Below are positions 13,003 through 21,564 of a stretch of 32,866 nt of DNA, piece by piece. The notes under the pieces were generated by a model. The model was given only the letters and a program-made list of their open reading frames with translations, was not told the origin of the DNA and ran no database searches. Made by a program: the position numbers and the translations under genes. The stretch is taken from the NCBI GenBank assembly GCA_003551365.1, contig PUMM01000092.1:1-32866 (forward strand). The letters run 5' to 3'. Source of the stretch: Clostridia bacterium (lineage in GTDB: Bacteria; Bacillota; Sulfobacillia; SLMV01). Position 1 is the first letter of the stretch; every line of letters starts with the position of its first letter.

Positions 13003-14844
13003 TCACTCCAGATCCAGCTCCTCCATGACGAAGTCCAGATCCAGTTCTCGTAGCTTCTCCGGCGTCGGATGACCATCTTCATCCCATCCGCGCAGTTCGT
13101 AGTAGTGATCGAGCAGCTTCTCGAAGTTTTCGCGCGGGACGATATTTCCTTTGGCCGGACCGGTGGGGATTTCCTCCTCGAAGAAGCGCTCCGGAACGGT
13201 GTCATGGTCGCGTCCGAATCCGGGAATGTGCTTCATGTTGAATGCCCGGGTCAGATTCCAGATCCGCTCGGAGCCCTGCATCAGATCCTCCCAGCTGTAG
13301 GACAGGCCCGTGACCATTTCGAAGATCTCGGGGTAGTTCTCCAGCGGCAGGTCGATCTCCACCCAGGGCAATCGGCATATTCCCAGTGCATCGAACAGCG
13401 GTCGTACGTGCTGCAGTTCGATGGCCTTCTCCGCTTTGCCCTCCAGCGAGTCGCGTCCTGCGGCTACGTCGTAGGTAATGGTCCAGGCGCGGTTGTGATG
13501 GGCACCCACGTCGGCCGTGGCGTAGGATATCAGCTGCCCGGGAGCCCAGCGGCTCTCGTAACCGCTCCACTCCAGACCCTTGGTCTCGATGGCGTAGTAG
13601 TGTGCATCATCGCCAATCTGCTCGGCCGCTCCCCTGACGCCGGCGGCCAGCACATCACCTATGCCTTGGCGATCGGCTATGGACTGCAGCAAAAAGGCCA
13701 CGTCATCGACGTCGCCCCATTCCAGCTTCCGGCCAACCTGCTCCTCATTCAGCAGTCCCTTCTCGAAGCACTCAAAGGCGAATGAGAGCACGGCACCACC
13801 ACTGATGGTATCTATGCCGAGATCATCGGCCAACCAGTTGGCGTAGGCCACTTTTTCTATGGAGTCCAGCATGAGATTTCCGCCCATCATGGCGATCGTC
13901 TCATACTCCGGACCCTCGACGTGAAACTCCTGGTCGCCCACGCACGCCTTGCTGTATTTGCCACAGGGAATCGTGCAGGAGAAACAGCCCTTGTGCGTCA
14001 CCAGTATCCGGTCCAGGATGGCCTGTCCATTGATGTTTTTGTGGTGCTCGAAGTGGGTGGTCCAGAAATTCTTGGTCGGAAAGGCACCTATTTCGTTGAC
14101 CCAGTCGGTCACCCCGGCAGTGCCCTGCGGCGTCCATTCCTGGAAACCGGGCAATTCAAAGGCATCCAGATACATCTTCTTACCCTTTTCCAGCACGCCG
14201 GAGGGGTCGGCCAGTTCTAAACTCTGCGTACCGCGCACCGCCACGGCCTTGAGATTCTTGGAACCCATGACAGCACCAATGCCACATCTGCCGGCCTGCC
14301 GGCCGAAATCGTGCCCTATGCAGGCGAATTTGACCTGCTTTTCACCGGCGGGGCCGATCAGAGCCACCTGGAAATCCTCGCCCAGCTCTTCCTTGAAACG
14401 CACTTCACCCTGTATGCACTTTTCCCCCCATAGATCACCGGCGGGACGCACCTGTACCTCATCGTCGTCCAGCACCAGGTAGGAGGGTTCTTCCGCCCGA
14501 CCGTGCATGACCACCGCGTCATAACCCGCGAACTTCAGCTCAGCGCAAATATGTCCCCCCATATTGCTGTCCGCGTAACCGCCGGTGGCCGGAGACTTGG
14601 TGTGAAAGGAGATCTTTCCCGCCGAGGGCAGCATTACCCCGGACAGCGGTCCGGCGGCCATGACCAGGATATTCTCCGGATCGAAGGGCTGCACATCTGG
14701 CTCAAGCTCCTCCCACAGGATGCGCGCCCCGAACCCTCTCGATCCGAGATATTTTTCTGCCCACTCCTGCGGAGTCTCGGTCACCTCATGTGTGCCATCG
14801 GATAGATCTATGTGCAGAATCTTGCCCGCATAACCCTTCAGCAT
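13003..14844 (-). CDS. aor: Aldehyde:ferredoxin oxidoreductase (tungsten pterin family)
   Basis: The 613-residue enzyme belongs to the AOR family, which oxidises aldehydes to acids with ferredoxin, or the reverse, using a W-bis-pyranopterin and one 4Fe-4S cluster in the cytoplasm. The N-terminal pterin domain is typical (YLGSRGFGARILWEEL, NILVMAAGPLSG, YADSNMGGHICAELKFAGYDA). The cluster ligands appear as CFSCTIPC (CxxCxxxC, about residue 290) with the distant fourth Cys in LGICRLPW. A perfect AGGAGGTG lies six bases before the ATG, and the start abuts the stop of the four-cluster ferredoxin gene (TGAATG). The pair matches AorB and AorA of the multi-subunit AOR type. Whether tungsten or molybdenum is used is not determinable; no cofactor genes are in the window. 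Confidence 0.95.
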   Translation of the reverse strand: MLKGYAGKILHIDLSDGTHEVTETPQEWAEKYLGSRGFGARILWEELEPDVQPFDPENILVMAAGPLSGVMLPSAGKISFHTKSPATGGYADSNMGGHICAELKFAGYDAVVMHGRAEEPSYLVLDDDEVQVRPAGDLWGEKCIQGEVRFKEELGEDFQVALIGPAGEKQVKFACIGHDFGRQAGRCGIGAVMGSKNLKAVAVRGTQSLELADPSGVLEKGKKMYLDAFELPGFQEWTPQGTAGVTDWVNEIGAFPTKNFWTTHFEHHKNINGQAILDRILVTHKGCFSCTIPCGKYSKACVGDQEFHVEGPEYETIAMMGGNLMLDSIEKVAYANWLADDLGIDTISGGAVLSFAFECFEKGLLNEEQVGRKLEWGDVDDVAFLLQSIADRQGIGDVLAAGVRGAAEQIGDDAHYYAIETKGLEWSGYESRWAPGQLISYATADVGAHHNRAWTITYDVAAGRDSLEGKAEKAIELQHVRPLFDALGICRLPWVEIDLPLENYPEIFEMVTGLSYSWEDLMQGSERIWNLTRAFNMKHIPGFGRDHDTVPERFFEEEIPTGPAKGNIVPRENFEKLLDHYYELRGWDEDGHPTPEKLRELDLDFVMEELDLE

Positions 14845-15273
14845 TCAGTCCACCTCCTGAAATTCCTTGTATCGGGTGCGCTCCGGATCATCGGCGTCAT
14901 ATATCGCATTGCGCGGGCATATCTCGACGCAGGACCCACACCCGTTGCACATGAAGGGGACCTCCACGTCGTCGTGCGTGAACACCACACCTTCCGGGCA
15001 CTCCTCTACGCACATCCCACAGAGTATGCAGTCCTCTTCAACAATGCGGTAGTAGCCGTTTTCCGTCTCCTCGATGGCATCCACCGGACAGACTTCCTGA
15101 CACGTTCCGCACTGCGTGCAGTGTGCTATACGGTACTTCCCGGGAGCGGGAAACTCGCCGGAAATGCGAAGACGGGACATCTTTGGATTGTTCTCCAGAA
15201 AATTTTCCATCGCACAAACCAGTTCACAGGTTCGGCAACCGGAGCAGTTGTCCTCATTTACGGCCAGACGCAA
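14845..15273 (-). CDS. Four-cluster (4 x 4Fe-4S) ferredoxin-like subunit, AorA/HycB-like
   Basis: The protein holds exactly four CxxCxxCxxxC motifs (ORF numbering C13-C23, C55-C65, C85-C95 and C112-C122), spaced as in electron-transfer subunits of the HycB/CooF/AorA kind. It should pass electrons to or from the AOR encoded immediately downstream. In multi-subunit AORs a comparable four-cluster protein is AorA. The ORF-track GTG at 15282 lies on top of the ribosome site; TTG at 15273 has AAAGGAG seven bases upstream and is the better start, giving 142 residues. The second electron-carrying partner (an AorC-like FAD subunit) is not adjacent, though the FAD/NAD protein of the same operon could serve. 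Confidence 0.9.
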   Translation of the reverse strand: MRLAVNEDNCSGCRTCELVCAMENFLENNPKMSRLRISGEFPAPGKYRIAHCTQCGTCQEVCPVDAIEETENGYYRIVEEDCILCGMCVEECPEGVVFTHDDVEVPFMCNGCGSCVEICPRNAIYDADDPERTRYKEFQEVD

Positions 15274-15403
15274 ACCGATCACTCCTTTCTCCTGCTAACT
15301 CAATATCATCTCGCGCAGCAGCTCGCTCGTTCCCACTGATTTCTGTGCCAGCTCTTCTACGCTGCAACCTGTACATCCTTCTGTCCATCCGATCTGCGCC
15401 GCT

Positions 15404-16552
15404 TCAGACCACGCTCGGCTCGTGGATGAGCTCCTCCCGTTCGAAGCGCCCCAGATCCAGCATGGATATGTCCATATCCGGCTCCTCACCGGTGATCTTC
15501 TGCGCCATAAGATGAGCAGTCATGGGACCGACCATAAAACCGTGTCCGCTGAAGCCCACGGCCATTTGATAGCCCTCCAGACCCGGGGCTCCACCCAGAA
15601 TCGGCTGGGCATCGGGAGTTATGTTGTATTGCCCCGCCCACTGCCGAACCATGCGCAAATCCGCCAGCGGAGGCAAAATGCTCACCACCATGTGGGCGAG
15701 CTGTTCGGCAAACTCCCAGGTCGCATCGCAGTTTATTCCGCGCGGCTCGGACGGGTCACCCAGACCGGTTACGAAGGAACCATGCGGAGTCTGCTGACAG
15801 TAGACGCCGTGCTCCAGGGAGATCACCATTGGCCCCTGAAACGGTGCCACCGGCTCGGTCACCATTATCTGGTGCCGCTCGGAGTAAACGGGTATATCGA
15901 TGCCGGCCATGGCCGCAATCCGTCCCGAATACGGGCCGGCCGCGTTGTACACCAGGGGAGTCGATATGTAACCGCCGTCAGTCTCCACTCCCACTACCCT
16001 GCCATCGACAATGTCTATTCCCGTTGCTTCAGTGCGGGTCCGTATATCCACGCCCAGGCGCCGCGCCGCGTTGGCGTAGGCCATGGTGGTATGAAACGGA
16101 TTGGCATGACCGTCTTCCGGACAGAATGAGGCGCCGACCACGGCGTCGGTGCACACGTGCGGCACAATCTCCTCTATCTCATCCACGTCCAAAATGCGCG
16201 AGGGAGTGCCCAGTCTGTTCTGCACTTCAACGTTTTTTTCGTACTGGCGCATCTGCTCCTCGGAGAAGGCCAGAATCAGGTAGCCGCTCTGATTGAACTC
16301 GATGCTCTGCGGGTAGTCGAGCGTCTCTTCCAGCACCTCCAGCATCTTGCAGCTCGCGCGGGACAGACGAATATTCATCTCCAGTCCCCACTGCTGCCGC
16401 ACCCCGGCAGCGCACCGGCCAGTAGAGCCGGCCGTCAGGTAGTCCTTCTCCAGAACCACCACATCATCCATGCCCCGCTGCGCCAGCTCATAGGCCGTGG
16501 CGCAGCCGGTTATTCCACCGCCAATGATGACCGCCTCTGCCGTATCAGTCAT
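15404..16552 (-). CDS. FAD-dependent amino-acid/amine dehydrogenase subunit (DAO fold; HcnC/PdhB-like)
   Basis: The 382-residue flavoprotein has the D-amino-acid-oxidase fold: FAD-binding AVIIGGGITGCATAYELA at the N-terminus, the VYNAAGPYSGRIA middle motif, and the C-terminal DAQPILGGAPGLEGYQMAVGF plus SGHGFMVGP segments. This family oxidises the C-N bond of secondary or primary amino acids (sarcosine, proline, hydroxyproline, glycine). The ORF track starts at 16597, but the ATG at 16552 has GGAGGTGA upstream and begins at the correct place for the FAD motif. It overlaps the BFD-like gene by eight bases. As in dye-linked L-proline dehydrogenases it probably forms the substrate-oxidising beta subunit and hands electrons to the FAD/NAD and Fe-S partners. 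Exact substrate unknown. Confidence 0.9.
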   Translation of the reverse strand: MTDTAEAVIIGGGITGCATAYELAQRGMDDVVVLEKDYLTAGSTGRCAAGVRQQWGLEMNIRLSRASCKMLEVLEETLDYPQSIEFNQSGYLILAFSEEQMRQYEKNVEVQNRLGTPSRILDVDEIEEIVPHVCTDAVVGASFCPEDGHANPFHTTMAYANAARRLGVDIRTRTEATGIDIVDGRVVGVETDGGYISTPLVYNAAGPYSGRIAAMAGIDIPVYSERHQIMVTEPVAPFQGPMVISLEHGVYCQQTPHGSFVTGLGDPSEPRGINCDATWEFAEQLAHMVVSILPPLADLRMVRQWAGQYNITPDAQPILGGAPGLEGYQMAVGFSGHGFMVGPMTAHLMAQKITGEEPDMDISMLDLGRFEREELIHEPSVV

Positions 16553-16844
16553 GATTCTCATCACCTCCGCGGCGCTCATAGGCATCCGCCAGTTCACCCA
16601 GTGTCACCGGAGTCGTGGGCGGTCGATAGACGGGGACTTCCACCTCATCCGGTGCCACGCCGCGCGCAGCGGCAATCTCGCGCAGAATGAGCTCCCGGCA
16701 CGTCCTTCCCTGGCACGAGCCCATCGTACAGCGCAGCACCCGTTTCAACTCCTCGAAATCTGTGAGCCCCTCCTCCAGTGCAGCGCGAATATCCGCCAGC
16801 GTCACGTCTTCACAGCGGCAGATAATGGTTTCCTCGTCTCTCAC
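16545..16844 (-). CDS. BFD-like [2Fe-2S]-binding protein
   Basis: The 99-residue protein is a single bacterioferritin-associated-ferredoxin-like domain with four cysteines in the usual order, CRC near residue 9-11 and CTMGSCQGRTC near 39-49. In HcnB/OoxA/proline-dehydrogenase relatives this domain is normally fused to the C-terminus of the FAD/NAD subunit; here it is a separate gene. It would coordinate one 2Fe-2S cluster on the electron path between flavins. It overlaps both neighbours by a few bases, so the stoichiometry is likely fixed by translational coupling. Confidence 0.9.
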   Translation of the reverse strand: MRDEETIICRCEDVTLADIRAALEEGLTDFEELKRVLRCTMGSCQGRTCRELILREIAAARGVAPDEVEVPVYRPPTTPVTLGELADAYERRGGDENHD

Positions 16845-17338
16845 GTTCGCCCCGCTCCCTTCCCTATCGCACGAACGTCGCGCACCAGCTCCTGGGGGAT
16901 GACCACCCAGACCACAGCGGTCCGGTCAAAGGTGCCGGGATTCTGCACCCGGTGAACCTCTCCGGTACCGACCTCCTCGCCGGCCCGGTTTAACAGGGTC
17001 ACATGCTCCCCTGTCTCCGGAACTGGGCTGAATTCGTGCGGTAGCCGGATCAGTGCCTCATCCTCCGAGTAGGTCTCATCAATGACAAAAATGGCCAGAC
17101 CCGGGCACGCGGGAACACACAGGCCGCAACCAGTGCACTCCGCATGCTCGACCGAGGGCAGATCATTTATATCGGCAAACTCAGCTATCGCCCCTGCCGG
17201 ACAGGCATCGTGACACGGATCGCAGGGTATCTCTTCGAAGCACTCCACCCACACGACTGGACCTGCCGCGCGACGCTCGGCTGACGGAGTGATGCTTTCA
17301 ACATCTTCATCGCCGGGTATCCCGTCTCGCTTCAGCAC
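16841..17338 (-). CDS. Two-cluster 4Fe-4S ferredoxin-like subunit
   Basis: The 165-residue protein contains CFEEIPCDPCHDACP and CTGCGLCVPACP, enough for two 4Fe-4S clusters, in residues about 32-82, followed by a beta-rich tail of about 80 residues of unknown role. The first motif is expanded (CxxxxxCxxCxxxC), a spacing seen in the ferredoxin-like gamma subunits of four-gene L-proline dehydrogenase clusters. It starts at a GTG overlapping the end of the FAD/NAD gene by seven bases. It should conduct electrons between the flavin subunits. Confidence 0.88.
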   Translation of the reverse strand: MLKRDGIPGDEDVESITPSAERRAAGPVVWVECFEEIPCDPCHDACPAGAIAEFADINDLPSVEHAECTGCGLCVPACPGLAIFVIDETYSEDEALIRLPHEFSPVPETGEHVTLLNRAGEEVGTGEVHRVQNPGTFDRTAVVWVVIPQELVRDVRAIGKGAGRT

Positions 17339-18459
17339 GTGTCGTCACTCCCTTCCGTCAGCTTCTGCTTCCGGGGGATGGCTTTCTGCAGGCGTGCAAA
17401 CCCGGCAAGAATATGTTCCCCGGTGGGTCCGACCCGCAGGGCCTGCAGCTCGGCGTTGATCTCGGCGTGGCGCTCGGCATACTCCTCTTCATCCACATAA
17501 TCGAGGGAGTGTGCTGCCCCCAGTCCGGCCAGACTTCCCTCCATCATGGCCGCCGAGGCTTCCTCAATTCCCCGGGCATCTCCCGCGACATACACACCCG
17601 GAGCAGAAGAGCGCATGTTCTCATCGCACAGCGGCACATATCCACCCAGTTCCGGTACATATCCCATGGAACAGTTGGCCTGCCACAGCAGGTCTATGAG
17701 GGGACTCAGGCCAACCGCCAGGCATATGGCGTCGCACTCGACGTCGGTATCCGTGCCCTCTACTGGATTCCAGCTGTCATCAATTTCAACCAGGCTGGCA
17801 CCTTCCACGCGATCGTCACCGTGCGCCCGCGTGAGGGTGTGACCGGTAAGAATTGGCACTCCCAGCCGCCGGATCTTTGCGGCGTGCACCGTATACCCAC
17901 CGATCTCCGGCAGCGCCTCCACTATGGCCAGCACATCCACCCCCGCCTGCAGGAGCTGGTATGAAACTATGAGTCCGATATTTCCGGCGCCGACCATGAG
18001 CACCCTCTTCCCGGGTCGGACGCCGTATACGTTCATCAATGTCTGTACCGCTCCGGCGCCGTAGACACCGGGCAGGTCGCAGCCGGGAAAGGCGATTGAC
18101 TTCTCCGATGCTCCGGTGGTCACCACCATGCACTTGGGGTGCACCTTATTCCAGGTTCCATTCTTCTCGTAGGCGATGGCTCCGTCCGGATAGTAACCCA
18201 TCACATCGCTGTCCAGTGATATCTCTACGCTATCGCAGTCGAGGGCCGACTCCATCAGTGTGTCCGCGATATCTATGCCGCGCACACCGGCGCGCTGGGC
18301 GCGAGAGCCGAAGAATCGATGCGTCTGCTTGATCAGCTGCCCGCCCGCCCGGTCATTGCGATCCAGCACCAGGACTTCCGCTCCGTGTTCACCCGCCTCG
18401 CGCGCAGCCATGAGGCCGGCGGGGCCACCCCCAACGATGACAATCTCACATTCGCGCAC
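17332..18459 (-). CDS. NAD(P)/FAD-dependent oxidoreductase subunit (HcnB/PdhA-like)
   Basis: The 375-residue protein has two Rossmann folds: FAD-binding VIVGGGPAGLMAAREAGEHG at the start with RAGGQLIKQTHRFFGS, and a second one near residue 150 (RVLMVGAGNIGLIVSYQLL) for a pyridine nucleotide. The C-terminal FAD signature is GVYVAGDARGIEEAS. The GQLIKQTHRFFGS stretch is characteristic of the alpha subunits of HCN synthase, opine oxidase and dye-linked proline dehydrogenase. Unlike HcnB it lacks the fused BFD domain, which is encoded separately two genes downstream. GTG start at 18459 has AAGGTGA nearby and overlaps the upstream gene. It probably receives electrons from the DAO-fold subunit and passes them to NAD or ferredoxin. 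Confidence 0.92.
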   Translation of the reverse strand: MRECEIVIVGGGPAGLMAAREAGEHGAEVLVLDRNDRAGGQLIKQTHRFFGSRAQRAGVRGIDIADTLMESALDCDSVEISLDSDVMGYYPDGAIAYEKNGTWNKVHPKCMVVTTGASEKSIAFPGCDLPGVYGAGAVQTLMNVYGVRPGKRVLMVGAGNIGLIVSYQLLQAGVDVLAIVEALPEIGGYTVHAAKIRRLGVPILTGHTLTRAHGDDRVEGASLVEIDDSWNPVEGTDTDVECDAICLAVGLSPLIDLLWQANCSMGYVPELGGYVPLCDENMRSSAPGVYVAGDARGIEEASAAMMEGSLAGLGAAHSLDYVDEEEYAERHAEINAELQALRVGPTGEHILAGFARLQKAIPRKQKLTEGSDDTC

Positions 18460-18769
18460 TCAGATCACCTTTTCCTTCCTGGCGCTCGACGTGCATTCCC
18501 TCGCGCAGAGGCTCTATACAGGTCCGGACGTTGGATTCTCCGTCCACCCGCATCATACATTCTGAGCAGTTGCCGATTGCGCAGAAGAAACCGCGGGGAC
18601 GCCCCAGCTCATTGCTGTAGCGAAGGATTCTCACCCCTGCCGCGTGCAGGGCAGCTGCAATGGGTTCGCCCTCGTAACCCGTCAGCTCCTCACCCTCGAA
18701 GGTAAAAGTCACCTCTTTGCCGCCGGAAAAGTCCAGGATCGGGTGATCGCCGATCCGAATCTCGCTCAC
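18446..18769 (-). CDS. [2Fe-2S] ferredoxin-fold subunit (HcnA/SoxA N-terminal-like)
   Basis: The 107-residue protein is a plant-type 2Fe-2S domain as in HcnA or the N-terminus of sarcosine oxidase alpha. The cluster cysteines lie in CAIGNCSECMMR and, after 12 residues, TC; GYEGEPIAAALHAAG precedes them as usual. The GTG at 18769 has GGAGGTGA five to six bases upstream and is a clearly better start than the ORF-track ATG at 18808. Its end overlaps the FAD/NAD gene by 14 bases. It adds a further 2Fe-2S centre to the dehydrogenase complex. It begins 55 bp after the cyanophycinase-like stop, without a visible terminator, so it is likely in the same transcript. Confidence 0.92.
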   Translation of the reverse strand: MSEIRIGDHPILDFSGGKEVTFTFEGEELTGYEGEPIAAALHAAGVRILRYSNELGRPRGFFCAIGNCSECMMRVDGESNVRTCIEPLREGMHVERQEGKGDLSARM

Positions 18770-18824: not shown

Positions 18825-19745
18825 CTAGCTGCGCACGATGTCGGCCAGGTTGGCGACCTCCCCGCGCGCAAGCGGGCGGCCTCGTCCAATATCGTAGCCA
18901 TACCCCTCCCCCAAAAGATCCACCTGTAGTCCAAATGTGGTGAGCGTGCCGGGTTCCTCTGCGGTGTCGGGGGCAAAGCGCGCTCCCAGCATCACCGTCG
19001 CATTGCCGTCGCCGAACACGGCGAACTGCTCATCCTGCCAGTCGATCACCGCAGCCGTCGAATCATCCAGGCCCAGACCGATGACTTGCTGCTCCCGGTG
19101 CCGGGTGATCAGGTAGGCCAGCCGGCCGAAGCGGTTCCTGTCAAAGAAGTGCCGCTCAATTATGAGGTTGGGCATCAACCCCAGACCTTCGATCACGGGC
19201 GCCGGAGGCGGCGAAGCTCTCTCCTTTTGCGGATTCACTTCATCGGGGTACGCCCCACCATATCGGAGGGCAGCAAGGCTGTCTCCACTGCAGAACATGG
19301 CCCGTCCCATGAGAGAGGCACCCTTGCCCGTGCCGGCAACCACTATACCCCGGGAGAGGCGGTACAGCAGCACCTCCTCAAAGCGTGAACCGGGAGCTGT
19401 CCGGGCAACGCCTGTACCCGCTCCCCCATCAACGAATACTATATCGGCGGCTTCGATGGTGGCAAGTGTGGACGGGTCATCGCAGGCAATGTCATCCGGA
19501 GTGCAGACCTGTCCACTCAGGCCAGTCGGAGTCAACATCTGGCGGCACAGGCGCTGACCGTCTGCGCGGCTGGCGGCAATGAGCAGGATCAGCGGTGAAT
19601 CCACGCACCGCAAATTACCCATGACCCGGATCAATGATTCCCGAACCGGACCACCTCCAATGGGCATCAAGTAGGTGCGATTCCGCCTCCACTGCAGCGC
19701 CCCGGACAAAATATGCTCACCCACCCCAAAAATAAGTGCGGACAA
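18825..19745 (-). CDS. Cyanophycinase-like protein (peptidase S51 fold), nucleophile motif lost
   Basis: The 306-residue protein follows the cyanophycinase plan: MPIGGG opening (about residue 27), PLILLIAASR, ADIVFVDGG (about 101-108), the elbow region VVAGTGKGASLMG (about 135-147), ERHFFDRNRFGRL, and GLGLDDSTAAVI. In active members the elbow reads GTSAGA and supplies the catalytic Ser; here the aligned positions are GTGKGA, so Ser140 is Gly and the next Ala is Lys. The His of the HF motif is retained. The GGDQ substrate motif is also altered (GGAGTG). I therefore expect no canonical cyanophycin-cleaving activity. The TTG at 19745 has a poor ribosome site; a later TTG near residue 13 is possible. 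It heads the redox operon, which suggests a regulatory or structural role, but this is inference. Confidence 0.8.
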   Translation of the reverse strand: MSALIFGVGEHILSGALQWRRNRTYLMPIGGGPVRESLIRVMGNLRCVDSPLILLIAASRADGQRLCRQMLTPTGLSGQVCTPDDIACDDPSTLATIEAADIVFVDGGAGTGVARTAPGSRFEEVLLYRLSRGIVVAGTGKGASLMGRAMFCSGDSLAALRYGGAYPDEVNPQKERASPPPAPVIEGLGLMPNLIIERHFFDRNRFGRLAYLITRHREQQVIGLGLDDSTAAVIDWQDEQFAVFGDGNATVMLGARFAPDTAEEPGTLTTFGLQVDLLGEGYGYDIGRGRPLARGEVANLADIVRS

Positions 19746-20766: not shown

Positions 20767-21564
20767 TCAGCGACAGAAATTGTCCTCTATCTCCCGGACC
20801 AGGGGCTTGAGTGACTCAGTGATGCGGTGGTCGGTAATGTCGAAAAACTCCAACGGAGTGATCGATACATGACCCGACAGGACCGCCGCCATATCAGATC
20901 CGTTGGGCGCGCAATCCGAACGCATATCGGCCCGGAGCCAGTAACGCCTGCCGCACTCCTCACCGTCCTCCACTCTCACCCAATGGCGGTAGGGACAGGG
21001 GCCGAGTTCGGTGATGCAGACGCCGGACAGTTCTGCCACCGGCCGGATGGGCACATTGACATTCAGAAGGAAGGGAGTTGGTGCCCAGCTACCCAGCACC
21101 TGCACCATCGAGTGTACGAAGGTAGCTGCTGTGTGGTAGTCTTCCGGCTCCTCCGACGATGAGCCCAGGGACACGGCCAGACCGGGTACTCCCTCTATCT
21201 GTGCCTCGATGGCCGCAGCCACAGTGCCGGAGTACAGCACATCGGTGGCCAGATTCGGACCACTGTTTATGCCGGACACCACCAGGTCCACCTCTTCGTC
21301 GATCAGATAGTTTATGCCCAGCTTGACGCAATCAGCGGGACTGCCGGAAGTCTTCCAGGCCGGCGTCTGAAACACATCGTCCGGCAGGCGCTCTGCGTAC
21401 AGGGGTTCGCGAATAGTTATAGCATGCCCCTTCGCCGACCATTGTTGCGCCGGTCCCACCACATATACGTTCACATCCGGAATGGAACGCAGAGCGGCAA
21501 CAGCTTCGGTGAGTCCGGGAGCGAAGATGCCATCGTCGTTGGTGGCCATCACAGTTAATGACAT
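20767..21564 (-). CDS. surE: 5'/3'-nucleotidase SurE
   Basis: The 265-residue protein is a metal-dependent nucleoside-monophosphate phosphatase involved in nucleotide housekeeping and stationary-phase survival. The metal-binding start TNDDGIFAPG, the SAKGHAITI segment, SGSPADCVKLG and SGINSGPNLATDVLYSGTVAAA are all in place, so the enzyme looks active. The ATG at 21564 has GAGAGGAA seven bases upstream. Its neighbours are two small polytopic membrane proteins of unknown role. Confidence 0.95.
   Translation of the reverse strand: MSLTVMATNDDGIFAPGLTEAVAALRSIPDVNVYVVGPAQQWSAKGHAITIREPLYAERLPDDVFQTPAWKTSGSPADCVKLGINYLIDEEVDLVVSGINSGPNLATDVLYSGTVAAAIEAQIEGVPGLAVSLGSSSEEPEDYHTAATFVHSMVQVLGSWAPTPFLLNVNVPIRPVAELSGVCITELGPCPYRHWVRVEDGEECGRRYWLRADMRSDCAPNGSDMAAVLSGHVSITPLEFFDITDHRITESLKPLVREIEDNFCR

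Follow-up and report, generated by a model that had tools for sequence, protein, structure and literature searches.

A cyanophycinase-fold protein without its catalytic serine in a clostridial genome with a vacated cyanophycin synthetase site

Cyanophycin is a nitrogen-storage polymer that is made by cyanophycin synthetase and cut by cyanophycinase. In the window analyzed here, a stretch of 32,866 nucleotides from a Clostridia bacterium, a minus-strand gene encodes a protein of the cyanophycinase (S51) fold that has lost its catalytic serine. The question raised by this locus is whether such a protein is a decaying relic, an enzyme of altered chemistry or a former enzyme that is kept folded for another purpose. 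The genome (G000) is a metagenome-assembled genome (MAG) of 201 contigs, 86% complete and 5.9% contaminated, and it was compared with the other members of its family, which is represented by eight genomes in the collection.

The S51 gene and its assignment

The open reading frame spans positions 18825-19745 of the minus strand and its translation contains VVAGTGKGASLMG. As read from the sequence, the gene likely starts at a TTG codon at 19709 rather than at 19745, because an in-frame TAA lies just upstream in the same-genus orthologue and a G-rich ribosome-binding region precedes the TTG in both. The resulting frame (18825..19709) encodes 294 amino acids and is 12 codons shorter than the full open frame. 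The protein matched Pfam PF03575 with 32.1 bits, above the gathering cut-off of 23.9, which places it in the S51 family, and it is the only PF03575 match in its genome. Against the TIGR02069 cyanophycinase model it scored 93.4 bits, under the equivalog cut-off of 126.6; four of five intact relatives passed this cut-off and the same-genus copy (119.4) fell just under it. An AlphaFold model reached a pLDDT of 90.8 and a pTM of 0.90, values that by themselves are no proof of folding, as the input alignment included intact relatives. The solved cyanophycinases 7uqv, 7uqw and 3en0 match the protein and were also the top PDB structure matches to the predicted fold (TM 0.74-0.84), which thus is of the S51 type.

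Changes in the active site

The initial annotation held that the elbow had lost its serine and that the GGDQ motif was altered as well, and both observations were confirmed. The nucleophile elbow reads GTGKGA (19317..19334, minus strand) where relatives read GTSAGA; with the same-genus orthologue as reference, the Ser codon AGC is now GGC (Gly) and the following Ala codon GCG is AAG (Lys). The GGDQ motif of relatives reads GGAG (19416..19427, minus strand), so that Gln101 in the numbering of the Synechocystis enzyme CphB is replaced by Gly. A further change that the earlier account had missed converts DQHF to ERHF (19146..19157, minus strand), replacing Asp172 by Glu and Gln173 by Arg and leaving His174 in place. 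The HF-R-R-GRL and GLGLDDSTA motifs had been described as retained; this holds for the histidine and for Arg178, Arg180 and Arg183, but the second motif reads LDDST (19056..19070, minus strand) where the same-genus orthologue has LDEST, an exchange of Glu201 for Asp. Gln101, Ser132, Asp172, Gln173, Arg178, Arg180 and Arg183 are published active-site or pocket residues of CphB (PMC3235067).

When aligned with the window protein, 114 other S51 sequences all had Ser in the nucleophile column and Gln in the Gln101 column, and the Asp172, Gln173 and Glu201 columns were 97-99% conserved. The third residue of the triad is Glu in 113 of the 114; the Asp of the window protein also occurs in the Ser-intact relative G005, so a His-Asp pair of triad partners persists. 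Altogether, of the nine catalytic or substrate residues known from the literature, five are altered; Gly stands for Ser in the G-T-S-x-G elbow, and the cyanophycinase pocket has lost Gln101, Asp172 and Gln173 and kept its three arginines. The protein is very probably not a working cyanophycinase, we infer that it lacks peptidase activity, and annotation of the gene as a cyanophycinase should be avoided.

Two other readings of the elbow were considered. A relocated nucleophile ('S145') is unlikely, because the Ser of GKGAS, which sits three residues past the nucleophile-plus-one position, is also present in the intact same-genus GTSAGAS. Inspection of VAGTGKGAS likewise led us to reject a Walker A motif, as the GxxxxGK[ST] spacing does not occur.

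Relatives and the branch of the serine loss

The nearest named relatives are the clostridial MAGs T1Sed10_160, T3Sed10_282 and B1Sed10_244R1, whose names appear to match soda-lake sediment metagenomes, to judge from passages of two papers with the term T1Sed10 (PMC6704655, PMC6295475). The same-genus orthologue (G001, MAG T1Sed10_160, locus L042) occupies the same locus, is 55% identical and aligns without gaps over 288 codons. It has all catalytic residues, with intact GTSAGA, GGDQ and DQHF, and its genome carries the cyanophycin synthetase gene cphA. In the S51 tree the window protein groups with G001 (100/100), then with G005 and G003, and then with G049 plus L045. Since all five retain GTSAGA, the loss of the serine falls on the branch that leads to the window protein alone.

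About 85,000 species, each represented by a single genome, were scanned with a pattern allowing S or G and A or K at the elbow. The 80 best loci included no further GTGKGA member; the best-ranked matches listed were all Ser-intact relatives, and distant Ser-less S51 proteins may exist beyond them. The dead form is thus known from one genome, an 86% complete MAG. A second, canonical cyanophycinase was found in G003 and G005 and was not seen in G000 or G001; because of it, the SurE-linked S51 copy in G003 and G005 may not be the main cyanophycinase of these organisms.

Absence of cyanophycin synthetase

Taking a TIGR02068 match above cut-off as a full-length cyanophycin synthetase, we found cphA in G001, G003, G005, G006, G049 and G076 and did not find it in G000, G002, G004 or G007. 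Because the window genome is 86% complete, the cphA site itself was inspected. In G001, G003 and G005, cphA is flanked by ispE on one side and by a gene for a 344-aa NAL1/trypsin-like protein on the other. In G000, contig C26 reads pyrG, the 344-aa gene, about 430 bp and ispE, and contig C95 continues from ispE to prs. Thus cphA is missing from its syntenic site, and no cphA remnants were detectable in the 430 bp spacer. Cyanophycin synthetase, which is a usual companion of a cyanophycinase rather than part of its strict definition, was accordingly not found encoded in this genome.

The gene for the 344-aa protein (L163:10122-11156, L164:5212-6243, L165:9367-10398 and L169:775-1806) adjoins cphA in G001, G003 and G005 and was retained in G000 after the loss of cphA; it was not found in the four other family genomes. 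An isoaspartyl peptidase of the PF01112 kind was absent from all eight family genomes, including those that bear cphA.

The locus and its redox neighbors

Upstream of the S51 gene lies surE (20767..21564, minus strand), a conserved marker of the locus. Downstream, on the same strand, a Fer2_4 [2Fe-2S] protein (18446..18769) has a ribosome-binding site of its own, GGAGGTGAT, and a GTG start at 18769. It is followed by a redox module of HcnB-like, Fd2, BFD and DAO genes (15404..18459), inherited neighbors that serve here as context only, as do the 4Fe-4S protein and aldehyde ferredoxin oxidoreductase genes beyond them (13003..15282). The region 13003-18769 as a whole resembles a split sarcosine-oxidase-like set (Fer2_4, HcnB-like protein, ferredoxin, BFD and DAO) followed by the 4Fe-4S protein and the oxidoreductase, and most of the family shares the first part of this set.

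The position of the gene at the head of this operon had been taken as a hint of a new role for the S51 fold, a proposal that comparison with the relatives does not sustain. In G001, G005 and G003, Ser-intact S51 orthologues lie downstream of RseP-IspG-SurE, the same place as in the window. Fer2_4 and HcnB come next in G001 and G005, whereas in G003 the 4Fe-4S protein and aldehyde ferredoxin oxidoreductase follow, with no adjoining Fer2_4/HcnB/DAO module. The order in G002, G004 and G007 is RseP-IspG-SurE, an opposite-strand gene and Fer2_4-HcnB; the S51 gene is absent there, and no S51 relative was found anywhere in these three genomes. Outside the family, G049 and G076/L045 have the S51 gene with other neighbors. 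As the redox operon exists in genomes devoid of S51, and S51 at a locus from which most of the operon is missing, their adjacency is no evidence of joint function, and the position of S51 beside the redox genes is inherited. Nor did we recover the clade proposed beforehand, in which GTGKGA would always stand beside HcnB/DAO genes: among the genomes examined, GTGKGA occurred in one only.

Some arrangements at these loci deserve mention. In G001 no stop separates the S51 frame from that of Fer2_4, and together they form a 420-aa open frame on the minus strand (L002:1105-2364, with the corresponding part of L031). A fusion of the two is possible there, but Fer2_4 has retained a ribosome-binding site of its own. 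The opposite-strand gene found between SurE and Fer2_4 in three relatives (L175:2602-3633, L176:3875-5119 and L177:2994-3992), at the place that S51 holds in the others, resembles a D-Ala-D-Ala ligase-type ATP-grasp protein on a reading of its sequence only. At L045:8998-11151, upstream of Obg, the gene immediately after an S51 relative encodes a YheC/D-like ATP-grasp protein.

Constraint on the window protein and alternative explanations

The window protein has changed fast. Its end branch in the S51 tree measures 0.72 changes per column against 0.14 for G001, and the window/G001 branch ratio in three- or four-taxon trees was 2.96 for S51 and 0.74-2.04 for nine neighboring or cphA-locus genes. 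With G005 used to polarize the amino-acid changes, 48 were assigned to the lineage of the window protein and 19 to that of G001 (p = 5e-4). These changes are unevenly distributed: the losses comprise five of nine catalytic or pocket residues but, of the 22 other invariants, only the elbow Ala (Fisher p = 0.004). Among near-invariant columns, all six losses were in or beside the active site, and all 21 structural invariants were kept. The 288 codons shared with G001 contain no stop or gap, with differences at 60% of third positions; in our own codon model for branch dN/dS the synonymous sites were saturated and the omegas not separable.

A plain relic, functionless since the loss of cphA and with its frame unbroken by chance, would agree with this faster change, with the empty cphA site and with the absence of S51 from the locus in G002, G004 and G007, genomes also without a full cphA. 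We consider it unlikely. In a neutral simulation started from the G001 sequence as stand-in ancestor, none of 1,500 runs kept all 21 structural invariants, and at t >= 0.3, where loss of the six residues becomes even slightly likely, the probability of no stop was about 3% and that of no indel below 1e-5. Substitutions on the window branch were also far more conservative (mean BLOSUM62 of 0.04) than under neutrality (about -0.86 +/- 0.19). Neutral decay does not fit this protein and was rejected. With catalytic residues lost and fold residues conserved under selection, the proposal of a pseudoenzyme made in the initial annotation is upheld.

Selection could have acted on something other than a non-catalytic protein. 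An altered enzyme, in which the Gly-Lys elbow and the kept His and Asp catalyze another reaction on an anionic substrate, would suit the retention of His174 and three arginines and the gain of a Lys and an Arg next to the pocket; it seems improbable to us, given an elbow without a nucleophile, the loss of the substrate-site residues Gln101, Asp172 and Gln173, and the failure to find in other genomes a conserved form that would indicate a stable new active site. Even less credible is a frame preserved solely as a translational leader that brings ribosomes to the downstream redox genes. The distance of about 55 bp from the S51 stop to the Fer2_4 start and the 294 codons free of stops and frameshifts are what such a leader would show, but Fer2_4 has a strong ribosome-binding site of its own, three relatives have the redox operon without S51, and selection on the frame alone would neither preserve all 21 structural residues nor favor conservative changes. 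As for an error of sequencing, assembly or binning, a fragmented and partly contaminated metagenome assembly invites the suspicion; nine nucleotide differences from G001 across six active-site codons with zero indels, in the expected synteny and alongside same-genus neighbors, make it extremely unlikely.

A proposed origin of the protein

The explanation that we favor, and hold to be somewhat better than an even bet, is that of a former cyanophycinase that became catalytically dead with the loss of cphA, was kept folded and is now probably non-catalytic. Its ancestor would have been a serine-type cyanophycinase-like peptidase, of the kind still intact in the same genus. In the window lineage catalysis would have been lost together with the cyanophycin synthetase gene, with no order of the two implied. 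With no polymer left to cut, the nucleophile and substrate residues would have been freed from constraint while selection kept the fold; the loss of cphA was presumably the cause of this release. A more basic pocket would result from the His and the three pocket arginines that were kept, together with the new elbow Lys and the new Arg beside the His; as a conjecture, such a pocket could bind a small anionic ligand or a protein partner. The present action of the protein most likely does not involve catalysis. Only tentatively do we suggest its more specific form, in which the cyanophycinase fold took on, in one lineage after cphA was lost, the role of an anion-binding regulator or scaffold, an enzyme-to-sensor conversion with an intact sister at the same locus.

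This would be the birth of a pseudoenzyme with its likely trigger visible in the genome, where the gene of the polymer-making partner no longer stands at its syntenic site and the catalytic residues are gone. The intact same-genus orthologue supplies the state before the change, so the passage from enzyme to non-catalytic protein is a question testable with two expressed proteins.

Comparison with known systems

Catalytic residues lost from a conserved fold are the general mark of pseudopeptidases and other pseudoenzymes (PMC10211241, PMC11266112), as in the window protein; no S51 example was found in a limited literature search. The best PDB match in both fold and sequence is the cyanophycinase of P. 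cellulosolvens (PDB 7UQV), titled 'pseudo-CphB'. Unlike the window protein, its sequence has GTSAGAS, GGDQ and DQHF all intact, so by sequence it is no serine-less precedent, its title notwithstanding. Peptidase E (aspartyl dipeptidase, S51.001) shares the superfamily fold and is a weaker match (TM 0.5-0.7); the window motifs, HFxxRxRxGRL and DxST, are cyanophycinase-like and not those of PepE. Synechocystis CphB (PDB 3EN0, 7UQW; MEROPS S51, TIGR02069) has the same fold as the window protein (Foldseek TM 0.74-0.83), and His174, Arg178, Arg180, Arg183 and the glycine framework are common to both. The window protein differs from it in lacking Ser132, Gln101, Asp172 and Gln173, in having Asp for Glu201, in its TIGR02069 score below cut-off and in belonging to a genome without cphA.
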